From: Arthrobacter cavernae
GTDB lineage: Bacteria; Actinomycetota; Actinomycetes; Actinomycetales; Micrococcaceae
Length of the DNA: 64,000 bases
Reading direction: 5' to 3'
Assembly (NCBI RefSeq): GCF_017368795.1
Contig: NZ_JAFNLL010000012.1
Location: 62,001-126,000 of the forward strand
Under the pieces are notes generated by a model. It was given only the letters and a program-made list of their open reading frames with translations, searched no databases and was not told where the DNA came from. The number at the start of each line of letters is the position of its first letter. The first letter of the stretch is position 1. Position numbers and translations under genes: made by a program. This document shows positions 27,634 to 62,574 of the stretch, piece by piece.

Positions 27634-28755
27634 CTACGGGCCGTATTCGGCCAGTCTCCCTTCGGCCAGGGCGGCCGAGACGGCTGCAATCCCGGCGTAG
27701 TCGGGGAACAAGATCGACTGCCCCGTCGACGAGAAGCCGGTTCCCGCCGTCGGGAGCGTGAAGAACACCGCTGCGCCGGGGTCGACGCCGCGCAGCCCGT
27801 ATGCCAGGCCTGCCAGGTTCAGGACATCGAAGCCCTGGTCCACCACGAGGTACGGAGCCACGCTGGTGATGAACCCCAGCGTGCGGGCCGGGTCGTTCAG
27901 GGTGCCGGAGTTCACCAGGGTGGCCATGATTGCCCGGACGAAGGTCTGCTGGTTGCGGACCCGCTGGTAGTCGCCGTCGATGAACGCATACCTCTCGCGC
28001 ACGAACTCAAGGGCGGCCTGCCCGTCGAGTTTGTTCACACCGGCCGGGAAATAGTGGTGCGTGTCGTGCGTGGAGGTGAACGGTACCGTGACGTTGACGT
28101 CCACCCCGCCGAGGAAGTCCGTCAGCGTCTTGAGGCCGTTGAAGTCCAGCATGACGGTGTGGTCGATGCGGGTGTTCAGCAGCGAGCCCACGGCCTGCGC
28201 CACGAGCGGCACGCCCCCGACCTCCAAGGAGGCGTTGATTTTGGATGCGCCGTACCCCGGAATGTCCACCCACAAGTCGCGCATGATGGAAATCCCGTAG
28301 ATCCGTTGGTGGTCGGCCGGAATGTGGATGAGTATCAGGCTGTCCGAGCGGTGGTCGGACGGCTGGCCCGTGGTTGCCGTGTATTCCGCTGCCGCCCGGG
28401 CATCCCCGCGCATATCGCTGCCGATCAGCAGGATGTTCATGGGCGTAGTGGGCAGTCCGGGCAGGACCGGAGGCAGCGGGACAGCGGGGGCAGCCGGTGC
28501 CGGCGGGGCCGGCGGCTCCGAGACGCTGGGAGTGGCTGTGTGTGTGGAGTTGGCTTGGGCGCTGGTGCCCGACGGCGGGCTGCCCGGCACCGCTGTCCGG
28601 TTGACGTTGACGATGATCCCTGCAATGACGATGCCGAACGCCAGCACCATGGCGAGTACCGCGCCTACCCGGAGGCGCCGTAGCCGTTCGCTGGACTTGC
28701 CGGCCGGTGGCGGAGGTTCCGTAGCGGCTCCGCCCGGATCAGACTGAGGTTCCAT
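27634..28755 (-). CDS. LytR-CpsA-Psr (LCP) family glycopolymer ligase
   Basis: About 373 residues from ATG 28755 (an in-frame GTG at 28779 is possible). A short cytoplasmic N-terminus is followed by one membrane segment (VGAVLAMVLAFGIVIAGIIV) and a Pro/Ala/Ser-rich stalk. The LCP domain has SDSLILIHIPADHQRIYGIS, SIMRDLWVDIPG and FVRERYAFIDGDYQRVRNQQ, holding the arginines and aspartates that bind polyprenyl pyrophosphate. LCP enzymes attach wall polymers to peptidoglycan outside the cell. A paralogue is at 35899-36957. Confidence 0.88.
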   Translation of the reverse strand: MEPQSDPGGAATEPPPPAGKSSERLRRLRVGAVLAMVLAFGIVIAGIIVNVNRTAVPGSPPSGTSAQANSTHTATPSVSEPPAPPAPAAPAVPLPPVLPGLPTTPMNILLIGSDMRGDARAAAEYTATTGQPSDHRSDSLILIHIPADHQRIYGISIMRDLWVDIPGYGASKINASLEVGGVPLVAQAVGSLLNTRIDHTVMLDFNGLKTLTDFLGGVDVNVTVPFTSTHDTHHYFPAGVNKLDGQAALEFVRERYAFIDGDYQRVRNQQTFVRAIMATLVNSGTLNDPARTLGFITSVAPYLVVDQGFDVLNLAGLAYGLRGVDPGAAVFFTLPTAGTGFSSTGQSILFPDYAGIAAVSAALAEGRLAEYGP

Positions 28756-28932
28756 GCACGGAACGTACCACCGGCCCACTCCGAAAACACGAGCGCCAAT
28801 GACTCAATATGGCAACAGATTCTGCGCAGCTGTTTAGACCCTCAATGCGCTCAAACTGTTGCGCACGTCACATTTCGCGCTAAAGTGATGAGCGGTCGCA
28901 GCGTCGCGGCCTTGCATGACGGGAGAACCATT

Positions 28933-35898: not shown

Positions 35899-36957
35899 TC
35901 AGTTTCCGGATTCGAGGGAGTTGGAGGCCACGTAGTCGCCCAGCTTGTCCGCAGCCAGGGCAGCGGCGATATCGGCGATGGCCACCGGGTCTGCGAGGAC
36001 AATGGATTGCCCGTCGGTGGACGTACCAGTGCCCAGGGTCGGCAATGTGAACAAGACGACGTCCTTTTGGCCGATGTCCCTTAGCCCAAGCCCCAGTCCA
36101 GCCAGGGTGGCGGCGTCCAAGCCTTTGTCCACGCTGATGAAGGGGGACACCGAACCCACCAAGTTGCTGATGGTTACGGGGTTGGTCAGGGTCTCGGCGC
36201 TGATCGTCTTGCCGATGACGGCCTTGAGGTACGCCTGCTGGTTACGGACCCGCTGGTAGTCGCCGTCCGTGAAAGCGTACCGCTCACGGACAAAGGCCAA
36301 GGCCTGCTCGCCGCCGAGGGTGTTCCTGCCCGCTGCGAAGTAGTGCCCATTGCGCCCGGACGACGTGAACGGCTCCTTGACGGTCACGTCCACGCCACCG
36401 AGCGCATCGGTCAGGCCCTTGAATCCTTCAAAGTCCACCATGGCTACGTGGTCGATCCGCTGCTGGAAAACGGATTCGATCGTCTGGACCATCAGCGGGA
36501 CCCCGCCCTGGGCAAGCGCAGCGTTGATCTTAGCCTCACCGTGTCCGGGGATTTCCACCCAAAGATCCCGCATGACGGAAATCGTGTACACATGCCGGCG
36601 ATCGGCCGGGATGTGCATCAGCATCAGCGTGTCCGCACGTTGATCCGTCGCGGCACCGTTGACCGCGTCGACTTCCGTGGCCCCGCGGCTGTCGCTGCCC
36701 ATCACCAGGATGTTCATGGCGGCCGTGCCGGTCTTCTGCGGTCGCAACGCCTCTTCAGGGAACGCGGACTCGATCTTGGTGGTTCCGGTGTTGAACGTCT
36801 GGGCCAGGTGGAACAAATATCCGCCGCCCACAAGAGCCGTGACAACCACAAAGGCAACGACGCCGATCAGTACGTTCCGCCTCCTTTTCCTGGAGCTCTT
36901 CCGGCGCCGCAGCCCGGATTCGGCGGTGGGTTCATCGGTGTCGAACGGGAGCGTCAT
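35899..36957 (-). CDS. LCP family glycopolymer ligase, second copy
   Basis: 352 residues from ATG 36957, which follows AAGGAAGAC. A basic cytoplasmic stretch (RRRKSSRKRRRN) is followed by one membrane segment (VLIGVVAFVVVTALVGGGYL) and the LCP domain: ADTLMLMHIPADRRHVYTIS, SVMRDLWVEIPGHG, FVRERYAFTDGDYQRVRNQQ. It is clearly a paralogue of the gene at 27634-28755. It would link glycopolymers to peptidoglycan. It converges on galU. Confidence 0.88.
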   Translation of the reverse strand: MTLPFDTDEPTAESGLRRRKSSRKRRRNVLIGVVAFVVVTALVGGGYLFHLAQTFNTGTTKIESAFPEEALRPQKTGTAAMNILVMGSDSRGATEVDAVNGAATDQRADTLMLMHIPADRRHVYTISVMRDLWVEIPGHGEAKINAALAQGGVPLMVQTIESVFQQRIDHVAMVDFEGFKGLTDALGGVDVTVKEPFTSSGRNGHYFAAGRNTLGGEQALAFVRERYAFTDGDYQRVRNQQAYLKAVIGKTISAETLTNPVTISNLVGSVSPFISVDKGLDAATLAGLGLGLRDIGQKDVVLFTLPTLGTGTSTDGQSIVLADPVAIADIAAALAADKLGDYVASNSLESGN

Positions 36958-36994
36958 GTCTTCCTTGAGGTCGGGATCGGCTTCCTGGATAGTA

Positions 36995-37429
36995 TCAACG
37001 CGCCCTGTGGGACCGCTGCGGCCGGCGTCGCCAGAGCCGGACGCCAGCCACGCCAAGAATGGTGCCCAAAGTGTTGGCGGCGACATCAAACCAGCTCGGA
37101 TAGCGGGCTTCGAGGAAGAGCATCTGGCCGAGTTCAATGCACAGGGAGGCAAGCATCCCGATGCCTGCGTTGTGCCACCAACGGCTGCCCGGGAATGACA
37201 GCGCAGCAAGGATGCCCACAGGCACGAACAGCATGGCGTTGGCGCTGGACTCCAACAAGTTGTACCCGAACCAGTCCGGGAAGCCGCGCCGGTGCAAGAA
37301 CCTGAAGAGGCTGTCGAGTGTTCCCTGGGCCGGTTTGTCCACTGGCGTCGGCCAGAAGCCCACGAAGGCCAGGAGCAGGGAATAGAGAGTCAGCAGCCGC
37401 CGTGAAAGGCGCGAAGGAGCCAGTGTCAC
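36995..37429 (-). CDS. VanZ-like membrane protein
   Basis: 144 residues from GTG 37429. Four hydrophobic segments are seen (LLTLYSLLLAFVGFWPTPVD, ANAMLFVPVGILAALSF, IGMLASLCIELGQMLFLEAR, DVAANTLGTILGVAGVRLWR), and NAMLFVPVG...IELGQ...D.xxNTLG is the VanZ-like pattern. Function in most bacteria is unknown; some members affect glycopeptide resistance. It starts 7 bases after a small membrane protein gene and ends shortly before the LCP start, so the three may form an operon. Confidence 0.8.
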   Translation of the reverse strand: MTLAPSRLSRRLLTLYSLLLAFVGFWPTPVDKPAQGTLDSLFRFLHRRGFPDWFGYNLLESSANAMLFVPVGILAALSFPGSRWWHNAGIGMLASLCIELGQMLFLEARYPSWFDVAANTLGTILGVAGVRLWRRRPQRSHRAR

Positions 37430-41183: not shown

Positions 41184-41720
41184 GTGAAGCTGAAAAACGT
41201 ACTCGACCATGCAGGGGTTGTCCTGTACAACTTCGTGGTCACCCAGGTGCCCTCGCACAACGTCCGGGTGGGCTTCCTGCGCGCCTTCGGAGCCGAAATC
41301 GGCGCGGACTCGGCCGTCTTCCGCGGCACCACGGTGCTGGGCATCCGGCAGCTGAAGATCGGCGAGGCCTGCGTGGTCAGTTTCCGCTGCCTCCTGGACG
41401 CGCGCGGCGGGCTGACCATCGGCAACAACGTGGTGATTGCCAGCGACACCCAGTTCATCACCGCCCACCATGAACCGAACTCGGACGATTTCGCCGCCGT
41501 CACCACCCCCACGGTGATCGAGGACTCCGTCTGGATCGCCAGCCGCTCCACCATCCTTGGCGGCATCACGGTGGGCAAGGGTGCGGTGGTGGGAGCCTGT
41601 TCCCTGGTCCGCAAGAGCGTGGAGGCCATGGACATCGTGGCCGGCGTTCCTGCCGAGGTCAGGGGCCAGCGGACGTCCTCGCTCGACTACCGCCCCAAAT
41701 ACCGCCCGCTGTTCTTCTGA
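41184..41720 (+). CDS. Left-handed beta-helix (hexapeptide) acyltransferase, copy 1
   Basis: 178 residues with hexapeptide repeats (IGADSAVFRGTTVLGIRQLK, SVWIASRSTILGGITVGKGA, then VVGACSLVRKSV) of O-acetyltransferases of the maltose/galactoside type. It likely acetylates a sugar of the polymer using acetyl-CoA. ATG 41184 follows AGGGGA. It is a close paralogue of the next gene, sharing the leader VVLYNFVVTQVPSHNVRVGF and the end LDYRPKYRPLFF. Confidence 0.85.
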   Translation: MKLKNVLDHAGVVLYNFVVTQVPSHNVRVGFLRAFGAEIGADSAVFRGTTVLGIRQLKIGEACVVSFRCLLDARGGLTIGNNVVIASDTQFITAHHEPNSDDFAAVTTPTVIEDSVWIASRSTILGGITVGKGAVVGACSLVRKSVEAMDIVAGVPAEVRGQRTSSLDYRPKYRPLFF

Positions 41721-41771: not shown

Positions 41772-42305
41772 GTGCTACTCAAGGCCTGGGACCGACTCGG
41801 GGTCATCTTCTACAACTTCTTTGCCACCCATGTGCCCTCCCATGCCTTTCGGCTGGCCGTCCTGAGGCTCTGGGGCGCCACCATCGGCACGGGCAGCAGC
41901 GTGTTCCGCGGCACCACCGTGCTGGGCATCCGCAACATCACCATCGGGGACAGCGTGGGCATCGGCTTCCGCTGCCTGCTGGACGCCCGCGGCGGGCTCA
42001 GCATCGGCAGCAATGTGGTGATCGCCAGCGACGTCCATTTCATCACGGGAACCCACCTGCCGGACTCGGACACCTTCGACTACGTCCTGCTGCCCATCAC
42101 GGTGGGGGATTTCGCCTGGATCGCCAGCCGCGCCACGGTGCTGCCGGACGTCACCATCGGCAGGGGCGCCGTGGTGGGCGCCGGTTCGCTGGTCCGCAAG
42201 GACGTCGAAGAGATGAGCATCGTGGCGGGCATCCCCGCCAAGGTCCGCGGCACCCGCGAATCCGCGCTCAGCTACGATCCCTCCTACCGCCCCCTCTTCT
42301 TCTGA
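41772..42305 (+). CDS. Left-handed beta-helix (hexapeptide) acyltransferase, copy 2
   Basis: 177 residues from GTG 41772 with GGAGCC upstream. Same plan as copy 1: VIFYNFFATHVPSHAFRLAV, IGTGSSVFRGTTVLGIRNIT, FAWIASRATVLPDVTIGRGA, end LSYDPSYRPLFF. Two copies side by side suggest tandem duplication with later split in acceptor sugar or position. The stop overlaps the next start as TGATG. Confidence 0.85.
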   Translation: MLLKAWDRLGVIFYNFFATHVPSHAFRLAVLRLWGATIGTGSSVFRGTTVLGIRNITIGDSVGIGFRCLLDARGGLSIGSNVVIASDVHFITGTHLPDSDTFDYVLLPITVGDFAWIASRATVLPDVTIGRGAVVGAGSLVRKDVEEMSIVAGIPAKVRGTRESALSYDPSYRPLFF

Positions 42306-48596: not shown

Positions 48597-49178
48597 TTAG
48601 GCCTCGGAGCGCTGGCGGCGGCGGGCAGCCACCACGGTAGCGGCACCTGCCAGCAATGCGCCGCCGCCCACGAGGGACCAGATCAGGATGTTGGAGTCGA
48701 TGCCGGTTTCGGCGAGCGCGCCGGACCCCGAGGCCGAACCGTTGCCATTACCGCCGGAACTCGCCGCAGTTGCGGAAACGGAGGCGCTTCCGTTGATGCT
48801 CTGGTCGGCGTTGACTGCGGTGATGAGGTAGGAGCCTGCCGTCGGGAGGAGGATGGACGCGGAGAGCTTGCCGCTGCCGTCAGCCGTTACGGAGGAAGTC
48901 ACAGGGGCTGTGGGAACGATGCCCCGGGCCGCGCCAACGGAGCCGGCTCCGCCGCCGCCGAATGCCTGCGCAGCTCCCGTCTGGGTGTTGGTGATGGTCA
49001 CTGCGTCAAAGGCCTTGAAGCCAGAGCAGCTGAAGGTAACAGAACTGGCTGCCGGGACGCTGGCGGCATCCACCACGCAGGGCGCTTGAGCTGCAGGGTA
49101 AGGCGCCGCAGTAGCAGCAGCGCCGGATACGAGAGCGACTGAACCGGCAAGGACGATTGTCGCGATGGTCTTTTTCAT
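48597..49178 (-). CDS. Cell-wall-anchored small protein with LAETG sorting signal, copy 1
   Basis: 193 residues from ATG 49178 (GGGGAG six bases upstream). Signal peptide at residues 1-25 (MKKTIATIVLAGSVALVSGA, then AATAA); a beta-rich middle domain (about 26-125) with one Cys pair; a Ser/Gly/Asn-rich spacer; then LAETG (155-159), a membrane helix (ILIWSLVGGGALLAGAATVV) and RRR. LAxTG is the signal used by class E sortases of high-GC Gram-positives. No sortase gene is in the window. Paralogue at 53580. The DUF4012 gene lies upstream on the same strand. Confidence 0.85.
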   Translation of the reverse strand: MKKTIATIVLAGSVALVSGAAATAAPYPAAQAPCVVDAASVPAASSVTFSCSGFKAFDAVTITNTQTGAAQAFGGGGAGSVGAARGIVPTAPVTSSVTADGSGKLSASILLPTAGSYLITAVNADQSINGSASVSATAASSGGNGNGSASGSGALAETGIDSNILIWSLVGGGALLAGAATVVAARRRQRSEA

Positions 49179-49345
49179 CATTGACTCCCCAAATATAATG
49201 TAAGGAATATCGCGCTATCAATTAATTCTCTGCCGCGATTGGATCCGACCGCGGTCCGCGATTCCTCTAAAAACTATCATGTGTCATCGGCCACAACCAA
49301 TTTGACTGTGAACTTTACCTATAATTCACAAAGTTTACAAACATG

Positions 49346-51220
49346 TCAAGCGCATGGCCTGGACCGCATGGCCTGGACAACCTCCGCACGGTCCTGGATG
49401 GTTGGCGTCACAGTCAATTGCGGGGCTTCAAACCGGGAGACCTGGTCGAAGCTGACTTCCGTTGTGGCGGATTCGCCGGGCGCCAGCTGGACCGTCATGG
49501 TGCCAACGGGTCGCTCCAGTTGCCTGAAAGAGCCCACAGGCGCCGGCTGGCCGTTTAGGCTCGCCTCGGACAGCTCTGACTCTGCCGGTCCGTAGACGGC
49601 CACCACTGTGCGCACGTTGCCCGGTTTGACACCCCAGTTTCCGTCGCCCGTCACGTATTTTGGCAGGGACGTACCCGCATCCAACGGCGCACTATTGGTT
49701 AGTGTGACTTTTGCTGTGTAACCGGAAGCTCCATCGGGGGTGCACGTCTGAATTAATTGCACGCTTCGCTTGACGTAATAGTCCATTTTGGCGCCGGTGC
49801 CGTCATTGAAATAGACGCCAAAGGCCGCACCCGGGACGCTCGGTCCCGAAATCGCCCCGCCGATGGGAAGCTGCTGGATGATCCCCTGTTCCTGGCTGCG
49901 CCCGGACCACATCAGCAAGCGGCCGTCGGCGGCGCTGGCGGAGACCGACTTGATCAATTCTTCCGCTGACCCTTGGCCCCCGGCCACGGCATTGAAGACG
50001 TTCCGGGCCACGGCGTCGAAGTAGTCGTCTTGTTCCTCCGGGTCAGGAAGCTGGGCATAGGCATCCGAGAGCAGGGTCTTCATGAGGTTGTCATGGGCCA
50101 GCCGCGTGGCCAGGGCTCCGCTGGACGTTGCCGAAACCGTGCCGGCGGGGATTTCCACGGGCCCCGTTGCCAGCAGGAGCCGGGCCATTGCCATGGTGTC
50201 CACCGCCAGGACGCCGTCGATCACTTGGCCGGGATGGCGCGTCTCCCACATCGTCTTGGCTGTTGCCGCGGCGGTGGGGAAGTCGGGGGTGGTGTTGACG
50301 TCCTGCATGTACGTTCCGAGGCGGTCCGTGAAAATGGCGGTCTGGGCGGGGTCCACGGGGACGGCTGGCGTGAAGGCGCCCAGCTCCGAGGCGGCGGCCT
50401 GTGCCTCCATCCGGATCTTGCCGTGATCCGCCCGGATCACGGCAAGCGCGCCCGGGATGCCGCCGCTTGCCCTGACCTCGGCGTTGTTCTGGATCAGGAC
50501 CAGGTAGTTCCGGGGACCCTCCCCGCCCATCATCGCCGGGAGAAGTTGCACCGCTCCGGCCGCTGAGTTGAGCGAAAGCCGGACGTCATTGAGTTTGGCC
50601 CGGGTGTCCACGAGGGGGTCCCGGACTGGCGGCAGCAGGCCCCCTGCGTCGATGGACTCAAGGCGGTCATGGGCAAGCTGGACGGTCTTGGCTGCGGCGA
50701 TGATGCTGGGTGAGGTGTTCCGGATCGGTTCCAGGCTGATTTGCCCGTCCACCGGTGTCATCGCTTCCCAATCGAGGGAACCGAAGGCCCGGATCATGGG
50801 GGCCGCCGCGAGCCGCGCTATGTCGTCCGCGGCCTTGGCCACCTCGGCGCCGGCGGCCAGATTGGGGCCGAGACCGGGAAGCAGGCTGGCGGCCGACCAC
50901 AGGGGGTCGCCGGCCGCCTGGCGGGCCTTGGCGGTGTGGCCCTGCAGCGCGGCGAGGGTCTGGCTTGCACCCGCCGTGTCGTTGGCCAGCACCTGCTCCT
51001 TGAGCTGCGGCAACAATGCGGAGGCGCTCTCCAGGCCGTCCTTGAGCTGGAGTCCCTGGTAACCGATCCATGCCGTCGCGGCGCCCAATACTGCGGCAAC
51101 GGCAGCGCTGCTCAGCGCCACGCGGATCACACGACTGCGGCGCTGGAGGATCTTGCGCCGCTGGACGGTGCGGCGGCGTCGCACTTCGGTACGAACGCCG
51201 GCGTCCGGCGTCGCGGGCAT
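49346..51220 (-). CDS. DUF4012 membrane protein, copy 1
   Basis: 624 residues. A basic N-terminal region (VRRRRTVQRRKILQRRSRVI) is followed by one membrane segment (VALSSAAVAAVLGAATAWIG), then a long extracytoplasmic part with a helical stretch (residues 70-200) and the DUF4012 core: YLVLIQNNAEVRASGGIPGA, LGTYMQDVNTTPDFPTAAAT and DGVLAVDTMAMARLLLATGP. The function of the family is unknown. ATG 51220 overlaps the kinase stop (TAATG). Similar in length and all motifs to the copy at 54358-56229. Confidence 0.82.
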   Translation of the reverse strand: MPATPDAGVRTEVRRRRTVQRRKILQRRSRVIRVALSSAAVAAVLGAATAWIGYQGLQLKDGLESASALLPQLKEQVLANDTAGASQTLAALQGHTAKARQAAGDPLWSAASLLPGLGPNLAAGAEVAKAADDIARLAAAPMIRAFGSLDWEAMTPVDGQISLEPIRNTSPSIIAAAKTVQLAHDRLESIDAGGLLPPVRDPLVDTRAKLNDVRLSLNSAAGAVQLLPAMMGGEGPRNYLVLIQNNAEVRASGGIPGALAVIRADHGKIRMEAQAAASELGAFTPAVPVDPAQTAIFTDRLGTYMQDVNTTPDFPTAAATAKTMWETRHPGQVIDGVLAVDTMAMARLLLATGPVEIPAGTVSATSSGALATRLAHDNLMKTLLSDAYAQLPDPEEQDDYFDAVARNVFNAVAGGQGSAEELIKSVSASAADGRLLMWSGRSQEQGIIQQLPIGGAISGPSVPGAAFGVYFNDGTGAKMDYYVKRSVQLIQTCTPDGASGYTAKVTLTNSAPLDAGTSLPKYVTGDGNWGVKPGNVRTVVAVYGPAESELSEASLNGQPAPVGSFRQLERPVGTMTVQLAPGESATTEVSFDQVSRFEAPQLTVTPTIQDRAEVVQAMRSRPCA

Positions 51221-52725
51221 TAGACGCGGCTCTTCGGGGACGCAGCCGCCGGGCGCTCTTCCAGGCCGACGACGGCGACTGGAACCTTGGCGTCCGGCTC
51301 GCCAGCGGGGATGTCCTCGATGGCAGGCGCATCGGCGCCTGCACTGCGGGCGCCTGCACTGCCGGCCGGGTTGAGGCTTTCGTAGTTGTAGTAGCTGTAC
51401 GCGTATGCGTCGGCGCCCTTGGTGGGGAGCTTGTTGAGAACAACGCCCAGCACGCTCGCGCCAACCAGCTTCAGGGCACCCAGGGACTTCACGAGGTCGT
51501 TGTGCTTGACCTTCTGGCTGCTGACCACAACGATCACGCCACCCACGTGCTGGGACAGGACTGCGGCGTCCGTCACGGGCAGGAGCGGAGGAGCATCGAT
51601 GATCACGGTGTCGAACTCGCGTTCCAGGTGCCGCACCACCTTGAGCATCTCGTCGGAGCCCAGGAGTTCACTCGGGTTCGGCGGTATCTGGCCGGAGCTG
51701 AGCACATAGAGCTCGTCCTCGCCCCAGTGCTGCAGGAGATCGTCAACGTGGGCCTTGCCCAGGAGAACCGTGGTGAGGCCTGCATTGCGGTCCAGGCCCA
51801 GGTATTCGTTGACCGTGGGGCGGCGGAGATCGGCATCCACCAGCGCCACGCGCTGGCCGGCCTGTGCCAAAGCGATGGCGATGTTGGTGGCCGTGGTGCT
51901 CTTGCCTTCGCCGGGGAGGGACGAGGTCACCATGACGGCGCGGGATTTCTGGCTGATGTTGGCGAACTGCATGTTGGTGCGCAGCTGGCGGAAGGATTCG
52001 GCGCGCGGACTCTGCGGGGCCGTCTGCGTGATGAGCGGCCTGCGGGCCGCGTCCTTGTCGAACGCGATGCCGCCCAGCAAGGGAATATCGGTGATCTTGC
52101 GGAGGTCTGCCTCACCGCGGACCTTGTTGTCCAGGGCCGTCCGGAGCACGGCGTATCCGATGCCGAAGGCAAGGCCTGCCAACAGGCCTACGAGTACGTT
52201 GATGCGGACGTTCGGTGCGGACGGGGAATCAGGGGCTTCCGCCGGGGTGATGATGGAAAGCTTCACGGGGGAGTCGCCGGTCTTCTCGGATTTCTCCAGG
52301 CCATCCACGGTCTTCACCAGGCTGTCACCCACTGCCTGGGCAATGGCTGCTGCCTGCACGGCCGAGCCGTCGGTGACGGAAATCGTGATGAGCACGGTGT
52401 TGCTGTCCGCGGTGGCCTTGACCTTGCCGGCCAGCTCCTTGGGTGTGGCGTCAAGTCCCAGGCTCTCGATGGCAGGCTTGAGAACAGCGGGGGAAACAAC
52501 CGTTTTGAGGTAGGACTGAACGCGGGCCTGGCTGAAGCTGTTGCCCATTTGGAGGTCGGTGACGGAGCCGGAGTTTTGGATGGCGACGAACAGTTGGGTT
52601 TCGGCTGTGTAGCTCGGCTTGGCAAGAATTGTGGCTCCCGCGGCACCCAGCACGCCCAGAAGCGTCAGGCACGTCATGATGATCCAGTTGCGCCTGAGTA
52701 TCCGGATGTAGTCGCGTAGCTCCAC
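51220..52725 (-). CDS. Polysaccharide-biosynthesis tyrosine autokinase (Wzc/CapAB-like)
   Basis: 501 residues from GTG 52725 with GAGAGG upstream. An N-terminal Wzz-type chain-length domain with two membrane segments (IIMTCLTLLGVLGAAGATIL; INVLVGLLAGLAFGIGYAVL) is fused to a BY-kinase: Walker A MVTSSLPGEGKSTTATNIAI (K275), then ALVDADLRRPTVNEYLGLD and VIIDAPPLLPVTDAAVLSQH. A tyrosine-rich tail (DAYAYSYYNYES) is the likely autophosphorylation site. It would regulate polymer length and export. Transcribed with the two DUF4012 genes. Confidence 0.9.
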   Translation of the reverse strand: MELRDYIRILRRNWIIMTCLTLLGVLGAAGATILAKPSYTAETQLFVAIQNSGSVTDLQMGNSFSQARVQSYLKTVVSPAVLKPAIESLGLDATPKELAGKVKATADSNTVLITISVTDGSAVQAAAIAQAVGDSLVKTVDGLEKSEKTGDSPVKLSIITPAEAPDSPSAPNVRINVLVGLLAGLAFGIGYAVLRTALDNKVRGEADLRKITDIPLLGGIAFDKDAARRPLITQTAPQSPRAESFRQLRTNMQFANISQKSRAVMVTSSLPGEGKSTTATNIAIALAQAGQRVALVDADLRRPTVNEYLGLDRNAGLTTVLLGKAHVDDLLQHWGEDELYVLSSGQIPPNPSELLGSDEMLKVVRHLEREFDTVIIDAPPLLPVTDAAVLSQHVGGVIVVVSSQKVKHNDLVKSLGALKLVGASVLGVVLNKLPTKGADAYAYSYYNYESLNPAGSAGARSAGADAPAIEDIPAGEPDAKVPVAVVGLEERPAAASPKSRV

Positions 52726-52919
52726 GTTGTAACCTCTCTGAATGCTGCTGTGAACTGCGGCCTGGCAAAGCCCCCGAATTAGCTTACTTGCATCAGGGAC
52801 CACATTCTAACCGTCGTGAATTTCAGTACATGACGCGCTGTTAACAAACTGTGAACATTGGATTACAAAGATCTCAAGATCACTCAATCGACTGTCGGCA
52901 GGCAGTTAAGGCCGGTTTG

Positions 52920-53483
52920 TCAGCAACCCGGGCGGAGCCCCGCTTTGACGAAAGCTGCCGTCTGGTAGAGGTACTGGAATGCCCAGAGGGCGGGATCCAT
53001 ATCCTCGTAGTACGGGATCATCCTGAACGCGCCCTCGTAACATCTGCCCACGATTTCCTTGGCGCGGGTTACGTGGAACTGGGATGTCAGGATGTTGGCA
53101 CTGCGCCAACCGTATTCCTCGGCCATGTCGGCCAGGACCCTCGCTTCACCCTGGGTGGTAAAGGGCTCGGGGTGGAAGCAAATGATCCTGTAGGGGCGTT
53201 TCGCCTCGCAATATGCACCCTCAATTTCGCCGTCGCTGTTCAGCGGCATGGACACGGCGATTGTGGGGGCGAGGCCGGCGTTCATCAGTTTTTCGGCGTA
53301 TTCGACGCGGGCGGTTGGCGGCCCCAGCACGAACAACACATCGGCGGGCTGCGGCTGTCCAGTTGGAGGCGAAACGTACAGCGGCACGCCGATCACAATC
53401 CACGCCACCAGGATCACGGCGCCAACAGGCAGCCACCATGTGCGCTTCCTGGGCGCGTGCGCACCGGTCCGGCGCAAAAGCAT
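52920..53483 (-). CDS. YdcF/SanA-like (DUF218) membrane protein
   Basis: 187 residues. One membrane segment near the start (WWLPVGAVILVAWIVIGVPL), then PADVLFVLGPPTARVEYAEK, LAPTIAVSMPL and GEARVLADMAEEYGWRSANI with TSQFHVTRAKEIVGRCY, the pattern of the DUF218/YdcF group thought to act in envelope metabolism. Paired cysteines may form a disulphide. It lies between the kinase and the second anchored-protein gene. Confidence 0.8.
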   Translation of the reverse strand: MLLRRTGAHAPRKRTWWLPVGAVILVAWIVIGVPLYVSPPTGQPQPADVLFVLGPPTARVEYAEKLMNAGLAPTIAVSMPLNSDGEIEGAYCEAKRPYRIICFHPEPFTTQGEARVLADMAEEYGWRSANILTSQFHVTRAKEIVGRCYEGAFRMIPYYEDMDPALWAFQYLYQTAAFVKAGLRPGC

Positions 53484-53511
53484 GAATTCTCCCTTTCAGA
53501 GTCAAAGCAAA

Positions 53512-53550
53512 GGGCAGGTGCTTTCCGGTTTCCCGGAGAAGCACCTGCCC
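53512..53550. terminator. Terminator hairpin after the second anchored-protein gene
   Basis: GGGCAGGTGCTTTCCGG (53512-53528) pairs with CCGGAGAAGCACCTGCCC (53533-53550) with one bulge. It lies between the anchored-protein and YdcF genes, so the minus-strand block may be two transcripts or have a read-through control point. Confidence 0.7.
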
Positions 53551-53579
53551 CCTGTGAAGACGTGTTACTTGACTGGAGC

Positions 53580-54191
53580 CTAGGCCTGGGCTCCAGCATC
53601 CTTGGCGCGGCGACGAACCACCGCTACGGATGCTGCGCCGGCGGCCAGTGCGCCTGCGCCGACCACCGACCACAGGACCAGGCTGGAATCGGCACCGGTG
53701 TTGGCCTGGCCGGTTGCGGTGCCCGCGGCGGTAACGCTGGACACAGTTTTACCGGAAAAAGCCTCGCCCTTACCGCGACCGCTGTTGTCGTCGTTGTCGT
53801 CGTGGTTGCCGTTGTTCACAACCACGACTGCCCAGCGCGTGTTGCCGGACGTGGTGCCGACGGCGCTGATCAGGTACTTGCCACTGTCCATGAAGGTGAT
53901 GGTGGTGGAGAAAGCGCCGGTGCTGTCAGCGCTGATACTGAAGTTGGACGGGGCGGGCCGCTCGCCGTTCGAATCCTTCTGGCCGCCGTTCCGCTGGAAC
54001 GTGATGTTGATGGGTTCGCCGGCGATGTAGCCGCTGCCGGAGAAAGTGATGGATTCGCCGCGGGCTATGGTGCCGTCGGAAACGGTTCCCTGCTCATTGC
54101 CCGGCGCCGGGTAGGTGGCTGCCACGGCCGGGGCGGTGCCAGTCAGTGCGATTGTTCCTGCAAGTGCAAGTGCTGCAATAGTCTTCTTCAT
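53580..54191 (-). CDS. Cell-wall-anchored small protein, copy 2, variant sorting signal
   Basis: 203 residues from ATG 54191 with GGGGGAC upstream. Signal peptide MKKTIAALALAGTIALTGTA then PAVAA; a beta-rich domain (SITFSGSGYIAGEPINITFQ, SADSTGAFSTTITFMDSGKY); a spacer with acidic NHDDNDDNSGRGKG; then QANTG (162-166), a membrane helix (LVLWSVVGAGALAAGAASVA) and RRRAK. Layout equals copy 1 (48597), but the LAxTG leucine is replaced by Gln, so sortase E use is uncertain. The matching DUF4012 gene lies just upstream. Confidence 0.82.
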   Translation of the reverse strand: MKKTIAALALAGTIALTGTAPAVAATYPAPGNEQGTVSDGTIARGESITFSGSGYIAGEPINITFQRNGGQKDSNGERPAPSNFSISADSTGAFSTTITFMDSGKYLISAVGTTSGNTRWAVVVVNNGNHDDNDDNSGRGKGEAFSGKTVSSVTAAGTATGQANTGADSSLVLWSVVGAGALAAGAASVAVVRRRAKDAGAQA

Positions 54192-54357
54192 TTGTCCCCC
54201 CTGAGACGAATATACGAAACTCACGTGATGGTGGGGATTCAGATCCCCATGCGGTAGCTTGCCGAAATCCCATATGTCTAGCCGGTGACGACGGTATCAT
54301 TCACGGCTTGCTCCAGCAAAGTAAATCCAGGGCAGTTACAAAGGGTTAACCTGCGGT

Positions 54358-56229
54358 CTACCTGATCGACTCACAGCTTAGTATTTCGGTGTCGCGAATC
54401 ACATTTGTGACAGAATCAACAGTGGGTGTGACAAGAAGTTCACTCTCCGTGTGCTGCACGATCCGGCTGAACGTGAAGTCCACGGTTGTGCTTTGGCCTG
54501 GTGCCAGCGTCACTGTGACCGTGCCGACAGGCCGTTCGGCGTGATGGTTGGCGCCGAACGGACTTTTCTTGCCGTTTACAGCCACCGTTTCAACGTTTGA
54601 CTGGACGGGACCGTAAACCATGATGTTGCTCTGTGCCGATCCTGCCGGCACACCAAACGCGCCTCCGGCCGTAACGTACTTGGGCAGCGACGTTGCGGCG
54701 TCGGCCGGTGCGGTATTCGTACTCGTGACACGCACGGTGTAGCTGGCGTAGTCTCCGTCGGTGCACTGGCGGACCAGCTGCGCAGTTCTTTTGACGTAGT
54801 AATCCATTTTCGCGCCGGTACCGTCATTGAAGTAGACGCCGAATTGGGCGGCGGGGACGCTCGGTCCGCTGATCGAGCCGCTCAGGGGATATTGCGCAAT
54901 TGTTGACTGTTCAGCGGCATCAGCTGACCACAGGAGAATGCGGTGCTGCTCCACTCCCTTGGCGATGCCATCAATAAGCCCTTTGTGGTTGCCTTGGCCG
55001 CCTGCCAGCGCCATGAAGATTTCCTTGGCCACAGCGGCGAAGTAGGCGTCCTGCTCGGCCGGCTTTTCGATTTTCGCGTAAACATCGGAGAGCAGAGTGT
55101 GCACCACGTTCTTGCCGGTCAGTTCGGTGGGCAAGCCGCCCTTGGAGAGTGCCAGCACACTTGAATCCTTGAGTTTGACCGGCCCGGTGCTGTCCAGGAT
55201 GAAGCCAAGGGCAATGGGATCAATCGAGATGACGCCATTGAGTCGTTCGCCGGTCTTGGCTGCCCACATGTTCTGGGCAGTACGGGCCGCCGTGGGGAAA
55301 TCCGGAGTCAGGTTGACGTCCTGCATGTACGTGCCGAGCCGTGTGGAGTAGATCCGCTCCTGCTCCACGTCGACAGGCAAGGCTTTGTCCTGTTTTCCCA
55401 GACCATCGGCCGTTGTCTGGGCACCGAGCGTGAGCTTGCCCTTGTCCATCGTCAACACCGCCAGGGCCGTAGGAATACCTCCGGACGCGCGGATTTCAGC
55501 GTTGTTCTGAATGAGCAGCAGATACCGGCGGGTTTCACCGGAACCAAGCATGGCGGGCGCCAGCCGGGATGCTTCAGCGGCCGAGTCCAGGGTCCCGCTG
55601 ACTGCACGTAGCTGTTCGCGGGCCTGGACCAGAGGCTCTGCCACCTGCGGGAACAGCGTGCCCGGGTTTATGGCTTCGAGCCGTTCGGCGGAGACACGGA
55701 CGGCGTGCGCGGCGGCCGCCACGCTGGGCGCGGCATTCTTGATGGGTTCCAGATCGGAGCCCGATTCGCTAGGCAGCAGGCTGTTCCAATCAAAGGAATC
55801 GAACACCTTGACCAAGGGCGCAACGCCAAGGTTGGCAACGTCGTCGGCCGACCGTGCGATTTCGGCCGTCGCCGAGAAGTTGGCGCCCACCCACGGAATA
55901 GCACCCGCGATGGTCCACACTGGATCCGCCGCCGCTTCACGGGCTGACGCAGTGTGGGTTCTGAGTTGTTCCGCCTTGCCGGTGGCAGCCTCCCGCCGGT
56001 TCTGAACGAGGTCATCCTTAAGGCCCGGAACCAGCTTCATAGTTGCCTCAAGCTCGGACTTGATAACGGATGCCTTGACTCCGAGCCACGCCGTTGCCGC
56101 AACGGCGACTCCGGCCAGCGCGGCAGTCCAGATGGCAGCCGTCAGCAGCCGACGGCGGAATCGCCCGCGTGCGGGCCCATCGCTAGGACCGCTCGATGTT
56201 GTTAATACGGTGTCAGTCGTTCGTGGCAC
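54358..56229 (-). CDS. DUF4012 membrane protein, copy 2
   Basis: 623 residues from GTG 56229, preceded by GGGGGAAGAG. One membrane segment at the start (LLTAAIWTAALAGVAVAATA), then the same plan as copy 1: YLLLIQNNAEIRASGGIPTA, LGTYMQDVNLTPDFPTAART, NGVISIDPIALGFILDSTGP, VYFNDGTGAKMDYYVKRTAQ. Most of the protein should lie outside the cell. Enzymatic role unknown. It sits between the initiating sugar transferase and the second anchored-protein gene. Confidence 0.82.
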   Translation of the reverse strand: MPRTTDTVLTTSSGPSDGPARGRFRRRLLTAAIWTAALAGVAVAATAWLGVKASVIKSELEATMKLVPGLKDDLVQNRREAATGKAEQLRTHTASAREAAADPVWTIAGAIPWVGANFSATAEIARSADDVANLGVAPLVKVFDSFDWNSLLPSESGSDLEPIKNAAPSVAAAAHAVRVSAERLEAINPGTLFPQVAEPLVQAREQLRAVSGTLDSAAEASRLAPAMLGSGETRRYLLLIQNNAEIRASGGIPTALAVLTMDKGKLTLGAQTTADGLGKQDKALPVDVEQERIYSTRLGTYMQDVNLTPDFPTAARTAQNMWAAKTGERLNGVISIDPIALGFILDSTGPVKLKDSSVLALSKGGLPTELTGKNVVHTLLSDVYAKIEKPAEQDAYFAAVAKEIFMALAGGQGNHKGLIDGIAKGVEQHRILLWSADAAEQSTIAQYPLSGSISGPSVPAAQFGVYFNDGTGAKMDYYVKRTAQLVRQCTDGDYASYTVRVTSTNTAPADAATSLPKYVTAGGAFGVPAGSAQSNIMVYGPVQSNVETVAVNGKKSPFGANHHAERPVGTVTVTLAPGQSTTVDFTFSRIVQHTESELLVTPTVDSVTNVIRDTEILSCESIR

Positions 56230-56268: not shown

Positions 56269-57705
56269 TCAGTAGGCGCCGGTGCTGTGGAATACCGCAC
56301 GAGCGGTACGGAGCAGGATGACCAAGTCCCCAGCGAGTGACCAGTTCTCCACATAGTAGAGATCCAGTCGCACGGAGTCTTGCCAGGACAGGTTGGAGCG
56401 GCCGCTGACTTGCCACAACCCGGTGAGGCCTGGCTTGACCAGAAGCCGGCGGCGCACGTCGTGCTCATAGACTTCCACTTCCCTTTGCAAGGGAGGCCGC
56501 GGACCCACAAGGCTCATGGAGCCGCCGAAGATGTTGAACAGCTGGGGAAGCTCATCGAGGCTGTACTTTCGCAGGAACCTTCCGGACCGCGTAACCCGGG
56601 GGTCGTTCTTGATCTTGAACAGGACGCCGTTTCCCTCGTTCTTGTCTGCGAGCGCAGCAAGGCGTGCCTCGGCGTCGACCACCATGGACCGGAATTTAAG
56701 CATCCTGAATTGGCTGCCTTCGATGCCCACACGCTCTTGTTTGAACAGGACCGGCCCGGGGCTGTCGAGTTTGACCACCAGCGCCAGCAACGCCATGAGA
56801 GGCGAAAGCAGGACGATGAACGTGCCGGACACGGCAATATCGAAAAGCCGCTTGATGACACGTTGCCCGCCCTCGAGGCTGGGCGTTGTGACATGGATGA
56901 GCGGCAGTCCAGCAACTTGCTGCGTGTGAATCCGGGGGCCGGCGATGTCCGTAAGGGCCGGAGCCATGATGAGCCCGACGTTGCGGGACGCTAGTTCCCA
57001 GCCCAGATGCCGCAGGGTCTGCGGGTGCAGCTGCACGCCTGCGGACACGGCGACTGCGTCGGCATCGCACCGGCTAATTGCGTCCAGAATCATGTGCGTA
57101 TCCGCTTCGTGGCCCATCACAGGAAGGCCGGATGCGGCCTCTGTTGCCGTTTTGTCCTGAACGCCCGGCGTGTAGGCGGCGATAGGCAGGTAGCCGGCAT
57201 GCTTGGCGCCCTGCAGGCTGGCTGCAAGGTGTGCAACCGCACCTGGTCCGCCCAGCAGCATGAGGCGGGACATGCTGTCACCTCTTTGCCTGTTCACGCT
57301 CAGATGTTGCCGGAGCAGCCAGCGCGCCAACAGGAGGCCGACGATACCGACCGGCAAGGCGATGGCGACGTATCCGCGGGCCGTGTCAACGCGAAGAACA
57401 TACGAAATGATGGCGACTAGTCCAAAGAGCCAAAGTGACGCAGCCGCAACCCTCTTGTACTCGTCCGGACCAGCTCCCAGGATCCGGCTTTGCCGGCTAT
57501 TCCAGGCGCCGAGCATGCTCCACCAGACGATCGAGAGTGCAACGGAAACCCACACGTAGCTAGCTTCTTGACCGGTGCCCACAAAGGTTGGCTCGAATCC
57601 GAAGCGAATCACATAGGCTCCGGTCACAGCCCACAGGATTACAAACGCATCAACCACCTGCAAGGTACGGGAAGTCCGTACCCGCCAGTCTCGCAATTTC
57701 CTCAA
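56269..57705 (-). CDS. Initiating polyprenyl-phosphate sugar-1-phosphate transferase (WcaJ/CpsE-like)
   Basis: 478 residues from TTG 57705 (GGGGA six bases upstream). Four to five membrane segments, a CoA-binding-like middle domain (RLMLLGGPGAVAHLAASLQG), then the catalytic domain: VIKRLFDIAVSGTFIVLLSP, LKLDSPGPVLFKQERVG-like VKLDSPGPVLFKQERVGIEG, YSLDELPQLFNIFGGSMSLV and GRSNLSWQDSVRLDLYYVEN. It puts the first sugar phosphate on undecaprenyl phosphate and so starts repeat-unit synthesis. First gene of the minus-strand block. Confidence 0.92.
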   Translation of the reverse strand: MRKLRDWRVRTSRTLQVVDAFVILWAVTGAYVIRFGFEPTFVGTGQEASYVWVSVALSIVWWSMLGAWNSRQSRILGAGPDEYKRVAAASLWLFGLVAIISYVLRVDTARGYVAIALPVGIVGLLLARWLLRQHLSVNRQRGDSMSRLMLLGGPGAVAHLAASLQGAKHAGYLPIAAYTPGVQDKTATEAASGLPVMGHEADTHMILDAISRCDADAVAVSAGVQLHPQTLRHLGWELASRNVGLIMAPALTDIAGPRIHTQQVAGLPLIHVTTPSLEGGQRVIKRLFDIAVSGTFIVLLSPLMALLALVVKLDSPGPVLFKQERVGIEGSQFRMLKFRSMVVDAEARLAALADKNEGNGVLFKIKNDPRVTRSGRFLRKYSLDELPQLFNIFGGSMSLVGPRPPLQREVEVYEHDVRRRLLVKPGLTGLWQVSGRSNLSWQDSVRLDLYYVENWSLAGDLVILLRTARAVFHSTGAY

Positions 57706-61263: not shown

Positions 61264-62574
61264 ATGCGCGCACCAAAGGGGAGAATATTGAATTTGCGTG
61301 ACACTGCCAGGTTGCTTCGTAATTCGAAGCTTTACGACCATATTGTCAGAAGTCGAGCGTACTACAGACTCCATTGTCTTTCAGACTCGTTGGCGCGAAT
61401 ACTGGGCAGTATCCGCTCGAATTTTGGCCTTAAGAATGCGGCATCCAGGCACCTGATTTTCGCCCCAACAGGGGGCGGCAATATTGGAGACCAAGCACTC
61501 TTGGAGGCGACTCTCTACGCACTGCACGGGCCGGTGACTGTCTTAGCTACGTCAGAGTCGGCCTTAGTGATTCCTGAAGCTGACCGAGAGCGAGTCCGGT
61601 TCGAGTCAATTGCTGGCTTTACTTACTTACCACCCTTACTTCGTATTCCGGCCGCAATTAGGTTTGTTCGTATCCTTGCCGCGGGAAGGAGCCTTAGCGT
61701 CATCGGCGCTGACTTGATGGACGGGGCCTACAACGCCGGAGCGTCACTTGCAAGAAGCAGTGGATTGTGGCTCGCAGCCAAGCAAGGAATTCCAAGTGTT
61801 TTGCTTGGATGTAGCTGGGCCGGTTCGGCGGTGCCTACCTGTACTTTGGCTCTCAAGAGGGCTGGTGCAGCAGGCGCCCACCTCAATTTTCGTGACGCCA
61901 TCTCACAGCGTCGCGCGGCAGCTTCGGGTATTGCCGGGGCTCGTCTCACGTCAGACATCGTTTTTGGCGACGTCCGGATTGAAAGTACGCATAGGCTGTC
62001 CTCCTTTGTGGAGACATCGAGGAACGAGGGACGTAGAGTCGCCCTGGTGAACGCAAGTGGCCTCGTTGGAAAAAGAATTGATCAGAAGGGGGAGTATGTC
62101 GATATAGTTAAGTCGCTGCTCTCGAGTCATTTTTCCGTTATCTTGCTCCCACACGTCTTTCGATCAACGGGAGACGATCTGCATGAATGCCAAGGCATTC
62201 TCGAAGCGCTCAATGAGCCAGGTGTCATGCTCGTCGACTCAATGCTCCGGCCAAGCGAAATCAGAGCTCTATGCCGAGATTCGGATCTAGTAGTAACTGG
62301 GCGTATGCACCTTGCAGTAATGGCATTAGGCCAAGGCGTCGTGCCAATCACGCTGGGAACGCACGGGAAAGTTGAAGGCCTCTACCAGCACTTTGACGGG
62401 CTCGACTTCTGCGTAGAACCGACAGTTGGTTTCGGGCAGCGGGTGGTGGACCTATGGCCGGAAGCAATGACTCAGGATTCTCTCTGGACGCGGTCACTTC
62501 CTGCAGTCGTGTCGCTGTCTCAAGGAAACTTCGTCTTGCAGGCTCCCGACCTCTCACCCAGCGAGAGTCAGTAG
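61264..62574 (+). CDS. Polysaccharide pyruvyl transferase family protein
   Basis: 436 residues. LIFAPTGGGNIGDQALLEAT is the family's start motif, and LVVTGRMHLAVMALGQGVVP is its C-terminal motif with conserved R and H. Such enzymes put a pyruvyl ketal on a sugar of the polymer using phosphoenolpyruvate, adding negative charge. ATG 61264 is chosen as the first in frame; its ribosome site is weak. Codon use is more AT-rich than upstream of 57.7 kb. Confidence 0.88.
   Translation: MRAPKGRILNLRDTARLLRNSKLYDHIVRSRAYYRLHCLSDSLARILGSIRSNFGLKNAASRHLIFAPTGGGNIGDQALLEATLYALHGPVTVLATSESALVIPEADRERVRFESIAGFTYLPPLLRIPAAIRFVRILAAGRSLSVIGADLMDGAYNAGASLARSSGLWLAAKQGIPSVLLGCSWAGSAVPTCTLALKRAGAAGAHLNFRDAISQRRAAASGIAGARLTSDIVFGDVRIESTHRLSSFVETSRNEGRRVALVNASGLVGKRIDQKGEYVDIVKSLLSSHFSVILLPHVFRSTGDDLHECQGILEALNEPGVMLVDSMLRPSEIRALCRDSDLVVTGRMHLAVMALGQGVVPITLGTHGKVEGLYQHFDGLDFCVEPTVGFGQRVVDLWPEAMTQDSLWTRSLPAVVSLSQGNFVLQAPDLSPSESQ

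Follow-up and report, generated by a model that had tools for sequence, protein, structure and literature searches.

The 64,000-nucleotide stretch of Arthrobacter cavernae DNA analyzed here (positions 62,001 to 126,000 of contig NZ_JAFNLL010000012.1, assembly GCF_017368795.1; hereafter the window) carries two genes for DUF4012 proteins, each followed by a gene for a small exported protein with a sorting-type signal. As stated in an earlier reading of the sequence (the original prediction), the two pairs belong to a row of seven genes on one strand; the row runs along the minus strand from 57705 to 48597. The row opens with a polyprenyl-phosphate sugar-1-phosphate transferase (56269..57705; TIGR03025 of NCBIfam, 427 bits, and Bac_transf of Pfam), followed by the second DUF4012 copy (54358..56229; 623 amino acids), its anchored partner (53580..54191; 203 amino acids from an MKK start) and a YdcF-like DUF218 protein (52920..53483; PF02698, 31 bits, cut-off 27.6). 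Next comes a Wzz/Wzc-type protein in which a chain-length regulator is fused to a tyrosine autokinase and which has a C-terminal tyrosine cluster (51220..52803; TIGR01007, 188 bits, cut-off 108; PF02706 Wzz), and the row ends with the first DUF4012 copy (49346..51220; 624 amino acids), for which a structure was predicted with AlphaFold and compared with the Protein Data Bank (PDB), and with the partner of this copy (48597..49181; 194 amino acids). The gene of the first DUF4012 copy (51220-49346) overlaps that of the kinase (52803-51220) by one base. The ATG of the second partner at 54191 lies behind GGGGGGA and the first GTG would give 54224; to judge from the sequence, the MKK methionine at 54191 is most likely the true start. 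PF13196 matched both long proteins (155 bits in the first copy and 151 bits in the second, against a Pfam cut-off of 28), and these were the only two DUF4012 matches of a profile search of the genome assembly.

In actinobacterial exopolysaccharide loci, a DUF4012 gene and a gene for a small anchored protein recur side by side as a conserved unit of two genes. Relatives of the first DUF4012 copy in named genomes gave 59 loci of the Arthrobacter/Pseudarthrobacter group, and a homologue of either anchored protein of the window lies downstream on the same strand in 58 of them, including L108 and L116, where the partner is in broken frames; in the exception (L076) the contig ends 241 bases behind the DUF4012 gene. 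Most DUF4012 proteins of this group had the second copy as their best match in the window, with 50-65% identity. Of 150 genomes sampled evenly from the genus, 106 contained DUF4012 (110 places), and at 108 of these places a partner profile matched downstream of the DUF4012 gene on its strand, at a median of 892 nucleotides after the domain; the underlying alignment held 28 of the 56 intact Arthrobacter-group partners (L108 and L116 excluded), 14 others and both window genes, and some of these matches thus arise by construction. One of the two misses is a DUF4012 gene at a contig end, with the partner beginning another contig (G136), and the other is the second DUF4012 copy of G099, for which the 9 kb examined (L275) contain no anchored open reading frame (ORF), so that this genome has a partner for one of its two copies, whereas G000, G074, and G127 have one for each of two. 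The 44 genomes of the genus lacking DUF4012 gave zero partner matches of at least 60 bits, and weaker matches, in longer frames, occurred in seven. Among the 128 partner places of at least 60 bits, 16 (that of G136 included) were not behind a DUF4012 gene, all in DUF4012-bearing genomes; examples of such orphan homologues are G054:C47:133198-133815 and G012:C1:2193953-2194570.

The pairing also extends beyond the genus. In samples of the order and of the phylum, DUF4012 occurred in 99 of 248 and 93 of 296 genomes, respectively. Leaving aside the window's family, the 248 genomes of the order yielded 116 DUF4012 places above cut-off, from 13 families, and every one was screened for an ORF on the same strand within 400 nucleotides having a hydrophobic N-terminus, an xxxTG motif, a hydrophobic stretch and a basic tail. 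Such a partner was present at 58 places, downstream at 51 and only upstream at seven, and the same detector, applied downstream only, was positive for six of the 327 remaining long frames of those loci, which served as control and are non-overlapping but not verified genes. For downstream partners the difference is far above chance (Fisher P ~1e-27, a value that ignores relatedness), and an earlier, slightly different detector gave 24/60 loci against 5/208 controls. The detector is crude, having missed a LASAG protein (L122) and an upstream LPHTG protein (L133), and in L244 a single partner between two DUF4012 genes was counted for both. Pairing recurs in nine of the 13 families (f4, 17/25; f71, 3/3; f73, 1/2; f75, 1/4; f76, 8/12; f77, 16/22; f78, 1/1; f81, 1/4; f82, 10/11), f80 having none at its single place. 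In genomes with several copies, 12 of 17 copies had a partner in f4 and nine of 13 in f77, where one partner was common to two; partners were found for 2/2 copies in G601, G546, G648, and G373, for 2/3 in G466, G580, and G606, for 1/2 in G416, G518, G532, and G675, and for 1/3 in G614, and in G642 two genes shared one partner. Outside the order but within its class, two of five loci had a partner, one downstream and one upstream. In six loci (L146, L150, L161, L165, L257, and L260) DUF4012 lies within open frames of 900 to more than 1700 residues, which are either fusions or merely overlong frames. In loci of ordinary LytR-CpsA-Psr (LCP) proteins, used for comparison, an anchored ORF was seen in 1/28, with flanks too short for a fair count. 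The original prediction had regarded the repeated pairing as a working unit, and would have been refuted had DUF4012 genes seldom been next to anchored proteins in other genomes. The surveys (108/110 in the genus and 58/116 in other families of the order) agree with it, showing the pair to be a habit of several families; it is not a universal need, since DUF4012 is also found with no partner.

The other genes of the row are less constant. Within the 59 loci of the genus group, a homologue of the sugar transferase lies upstream of DUF4012 in 56 (in fragments in one), a kinase homologue upstream on the same strand in only 14 within flanks of about 8 kb, and a YdcF homologue in none, the sole match being the window itself. 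Among 60 wider loci of other families, a sugar-transferase homologue was present in 10, a kinase in 24 and YdcF in one, and a motif search found no sortase genes within them. The kinase and YdcF are therefore context and not constant parts of the unit, and the proposal that the pairs act under the kinase found no support in the survey. In other Wzy systems the Wzc-type kinase sets polymer length and export, and by analogy the kinase of the window most likely does the same.

It could be argued that the two genes simply sit next to each other because the exopolysaccharide operon is conserved, and that no function links them directly, since gene order within one genus can be inherited. A mirror-tree comparison of DUF4012 proteins and partners (L108, L116, L114, and L076 omitted) gave r 0.65, the highest value under permutation being 0.29, but the correlation reflects shared ancestry and does not separate the two explanations. 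Moreover, the first partner of the window shows no greater closeness to the clade to which its DUF4012 protein belongs (0.403 vs. 0.395), a point that speaks against a tight functional tie, and co-transfer of the pairs was not borne out for the same reason. Nevertheless, simple adjacency appears very improbable, considering that the pairing recurs in the nine other families with changed ectodomains and mostly away from a sugar-transferase neighbour, and that the partner tracks the presence of DUF4012 across the genus.

Both partners in the window are hydrophobic at the N-terminus and carry a second hydrophobic stretch, followed by an RRR tail, at the C-terminus; both passed the LPXTG_anchor model TIGR01167 of NCBIfam (19.4 bits for the first and 17.6 for the second, cut-off 15.9), although neither passed Gram_pos_anchor of Pfam (11.4 bits against a cut-off of 20, and no match). 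The small exported protein with a sorting signal and basic tail announced for each pair is thus present, and the LAxTG-type motif announced with it holds for the first partner, with LAETG before the hydrophobic stretch and the RRR tail, but not for the second, which has QANTG, a hydrophobic stretch and RRRAK. LAxTG is the motif taken by class E sortases, and the single sortase found in the genome belongs to class E (NF033747, 252 bits, cut-off 160); the first partner has all the features of a class E substrate, namely a signal peptide, LAETG, a hydrophobic stretch and a basic tail. The final motif of the 56 intact Arthrobacter-group partners was LANTG in 45, LASTG in eight, LAATG in two and outside the pattern in one. 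In addition, in 36 of the 56 the L[AS]xTG motif occurs two to four times in tandem before the hydrophobic stretch (three times in 28), as exemplified in loci L063-L121 by L098:9997-10596 and L104:9955-10554.

The exported part of the partners is more variable. AlphaFold predicted a beta-sandwich at residues 29-127 of the second partner, with a block-mean predicted local distance difference test (pLDDT) of 85-98, and gave low confidence to signal, linker, and anchor. Its best structural matches were mostly sandwiches of the immunoglobulin (Ig) or fibronectin type III (Fn3) kind, with Z up to 10.0 for PECAM-1 and 9.8 for Nir2, so the model points to an Ig/Fn3-like ectodomain. Reading of sequences and E-values from an Ig-domain hidden Markov model, on which the assignment of ectodomain kinds rests, placed the downstream partners of f4, those of f71 and part of those of f77 with the second partner of the window, and assigned another beta domain with a C-x-x-D-x-P motif to f76, f81, and the upstream partners of f4. 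The ectodomain of the f82 partners (n=10) comprises only 44-124 residues, 45-60% of which are serine, threonine, and proline, followed by LAYTG. Nine partners searched against Pfam gave nothing above cut-off except Gram_pos_anchor in one. As far as can be judged from sequence, export and anchor are constant across partners while the ectodomain varies.

The unit sits in a polysaccharide locus. Besides the sugar transferase of the row, which would prime the polymer, Pfam and NCBIfam identified an acyltransferase, a WecG/TagA-type glycosyltransferase, a GDP-mannose dehydratase, and a pyruvyl transferase elsewhere in the window; an O-antigen-ligase/Wzy-like protein remained below the cut-off of PF04932 (29.9 bits against 31.7), and more glycosyltransferase-like and flippase-like proteins were read from the ORFs alone, without family search. 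On the plus strand, neighbouring genes at 41184-41720 and 41772-42305 encode similar proteins (178 and 177 amino acids) that, by sequence alone, look like tandem hexapeptide-repeat acetyltransferases.

A new element is the fold of the DUF4012 core. The model of the first copy, predicted with high confidence (pLDDT 93.3, predicted template modeling score 0.89), was obtained from a 56-sequence alignment containing 49 of the 60 loci of other families (11 with long or odd frames were omitted), five of the 59 Arthrobacter loci, and both window genes. In this model an N-terminal hydrophobic helix is followed by a long helical stalk, a mixed core (about residues 228-451), and a C-terminal beta domain; a hydrophobic stretch (mean 2.3 over 12 residues) lies within the first 60 residues, and a helix spans residues 12-78. 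We assume the same domain layout for the second copy. The cysteines C493 (47/56) and C623 (49/56) in the C-terminal part are well conserved and might form a disulfide. Comparison with the PDB by VIA-align, whose rows come from the high-ranked candidates of Foldseek, so that low-ranked LCP folds could not appear, returned LCP-type structures in 25 of the best 26 rows (Z 8.6-11.9 over 150-186 residues, 3.5-5.0 A), the odd row being a separase aligned to the helical stalk. These structures include LcpA of Actinomyces oris (5v8c; Z 10.1, 4.3 A, 172 residues), Cps2A with polyprenyl pyrophosphate (3tel; Z 10.3), and TagT (6mps; Z 10.0). A sequence comparison with the PF03816 proteins of the window confirmed 23 of the 25; 4obm and 9a9g, absent from those matches, we take to be LCP structures from their titles. 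The predicted model suggests that the core is LCP-like in fold, but the sequence tests given below do not show membership of the family, and we do not call DUF4012 an LCP protein. Enzymes with the LCP fold take glycopolymers carried on a polyprenyl-pyrophosphate lipid and transfer them to a wall acceptor. The genome has four ordinary LCP (PF03816) genes, two of which, on the minus strand at 27634-28779 and 35899-37209, share the window with both DUF4012 genes, so that ordinary LCP and DUF4012 proteins may act in the same region.

A precedent for such a layout exists. According to one study (PMC6381275), LcpA and the sortase-anchored substrate GspA of A. oris are encoded by adjacent genes, the model being that LcpA adds glycan to GspA before sortase fixes GspA to the wall, and LcpA needs R149 and R266; to its authors, no LCP enzyme before LcpA was known to act on a protein anchored in the wall. 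Since the DUF4012 pair has the same layout, with a putative membrane protein of LCP-like fold, a neighbour bearing a sortase-type signal, and a locus that should make a lipid-linked polymer, the simplest reading by analogy is that DUF4012 loads lipid-linked exopolysaccharide on a sortase-anchored carrier, or ties it to that carrier, a proposal that we advance tentatively and at somewhat less than even odds. The DUF4012 protein would be tethered to the membrane and face outward with its LCP-fold core, take the lipid-linked polysaccharide of the locus, and load it on the partner or hand it over; the class E sortase would link the exported partner to peptidoglycan, and the polymer would become fixed to the wall through the anchored protein, possibly by a covalent bond. 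An acceptor role also fits partners reduced to Ser/Thr/Pro stalks better than that of an enzyme or adhesin. The adjacency of the pair, the fold resemblance of the model, the sorting-type signals and the single class E sortase are observations, from which the topology, the polymer as substrate, the partner as acceptor, covalent transfer and the sequence of events are inferred. The conserved pair thus points to a possible way in which polysaccharide is attached to the actinobacterial cell surface, and the LCP-like core with its dedicated anchored partner provides a testable hypothesis of how exopolysaccharide is held on actinobacterial cells, with the conserved residues as targets for mutation and the partner as the protein to follow on a gel.

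Several observations weigh against this loading role, beginning with the DUF4012 sequence itself. PF03816 matched neither DUF4012 protein of the window, in which only PF13196 was over cut-off in a Pfam search up to E 1, and a sequence search against solved structures gave 10 matches up to E 1 with no LCP chain among them; the best of these (E 0.00034) is a designed coiled-coil protein, and the alignments shown lie in the helical part. Comparison by hhalign with actinobacterial LCP proteins was weak (E 0.008-0.055 for one pair, probability at most 5%), with colinear alignments (E 0.015 over 212 columns and 0.008 over 81) and, in a global run, 14 columns at E 0.58; the first LCP set included five wrong-frame sequences (L190, L192, L198, L205, and L207), which were dropped from the second, and about half of the 23 sequences in the second were not trimmed to the LCP domain. 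Likewise, LCP chains were on top in Foldseek yet with E of about 0.001-0.01, none at or below 0.001, and with target-normalized template modeling scores of 0.34-0.47. The main difficulty is the lack of the LCP catalytic arginines. Those of LcpA we take to be represented by PRD and R..RQQ motifs, and no column of the 56 DUF4012 sequences reaches 40% arginine plus lysine at 272-285 or 391-411; the columns rich in these residues lie at 237, 250, 268 (55%), 390 (43%), 428, and 434 (68%), those at 268, 390, and 434 being close to the two segments, and, given that the residue correspondence to LcpA depends on a weak profile alignment, a displaced arginine is possible. Two solutions are conceivable, namely a catalytic set peculiar to DUF4012 or a function without catalysis, as carrier or scaffold.

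The latter option would make DUF4012 an LCP-fold binder of lipid-linked polysaccharide, acting as a scaffold or in the control of chain length or release, with a partner that holds the completed polymer non-covalently at the wall. Besides the missing arginines, the large extra helical and beta domains agree with such a role, and an Ig/Fn3-like partner could be a binding module; Ser/Thr/Pro-stalk partners, however, have no evident sugar-binding domain, and the invariance of E248, Y388, and K478 (56/56 each), together with R250 (54/56) and D341 (53/56), suggests an active or ion-binding site, so that we regard a purely binding function as possible if somewhat unlikely. Taking the opposite option, DUF4012 might represent a second, separately evolved class of LCP-fold glycopolymer transferases, with its own catalytic set (E248, R250, Y388, and K478) and linking capsule or exopolysaccharide to dedicated sortase-anchored carriers, whereby entire polysaccharides would be held at the wall via a protein instead of via peptidoglycan sugars, an extension of the loading proposal that we consider doubtful at present.

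The distribution of the partner and the genomic context raise further objections. No DUF4012 copy has a partner in f72 (0/17), f83 (0/11), and f86 (0/3), and this is not due to a missing sortase, an explanation that was ruled out (sortases in 50/50 genomes, including all 25 searched genomes of these three families). Five loci sampled outside the class had no small adjacent xxxTG partner, one of them (L181) having an 864-residue ORF with TVVTG 307 nucleotides downstream of DUF4012. Within the window, the second partner has QANTG whereas 53 of the 56 relatives have LANTG or LASTG, and wall attachment could be done by the two ordinary LCP genes. These partner-free places (31 in the three families, plus the five outside the class) are in favour of the alternative that DUF4012 attaches polysaccharide directly to peptidoglycan or another acceptor in the manner of an ordinary LCP protein, the anchored protein being an accessory surface protein such as a spacer or adhesin, and the same applies to the DUF4012 gene of an exopolysaccharide cluster in Bifidobacterium longum (PMC5412050). 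Direct attachment is nonetheless unlikely in our view, because the near-total pairing in the genus and the absence of the partner where DUF4012 is absent imply a closer tie, and because the locus already has ordinary LCP genes.

DUF4012 is widespread, yet mentions of it were few in the literature searched, which was mostly open-access. There it appears as one biofilm hub gene and as a family noted in CPR and other bacteria; no fold or anchored partner was given for it in the passages found, and the pair may have been described elsewhere. In B. longum 105-A, the DUF4012 gene BL105A_0406 lies between the priming transferase gene and wzz in the exopolysaccharide cluster, and its product, of the same Pfam family as the proteins studied here, is annotated only as an auxiliary protein for an envelope protein, the words "sortase" and "anchor" being absent from the text (PMC5412050). 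Compared to the LytR-CpsA-Psr proteins (PF03816), such as Cps2A and TagT, DUF4012 shares the predicted core fold and the association with a polysaccharide locus, but has no PF03816 match and no conserved arginines of the PRD or R..RQQ type. The first partner resembles the LAxTG substrates of class E sortases in its signal sequences and differs from them in being paired with DUF4012 and in the tandem motifs of its relatives.

The closest functional precedent is LcpA-GspA, and the statement in the original prediction that no described system has this make-up needs qualifying accordingly (PMC6381275). Both systems are actinobacterial and combine adjacent genes, a membrane protein (a putative one in the case of DUF4012) with a known or, for DUF4012, modeled LCP fold, and an exported partner anchored, or predicted to be anchored, by sortase. 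LcpA keeps R149 and R266, while DUF4012 has no conserved equivalents and carries extra helical and beta domains; glycosylation of GspA and phosphotransfer by LcpA have been shown experimentally, while the DUF4012 pair is known here from sequence and model. Additionally, the glycan of GspA comes from a pathway that is not known, whereas the DUF4012 pair lies within a polysaccharide locus. If the proposed function is correct, the LcpA-type modification of a wall-anchored protein would be extended to a broad group of bacteria.

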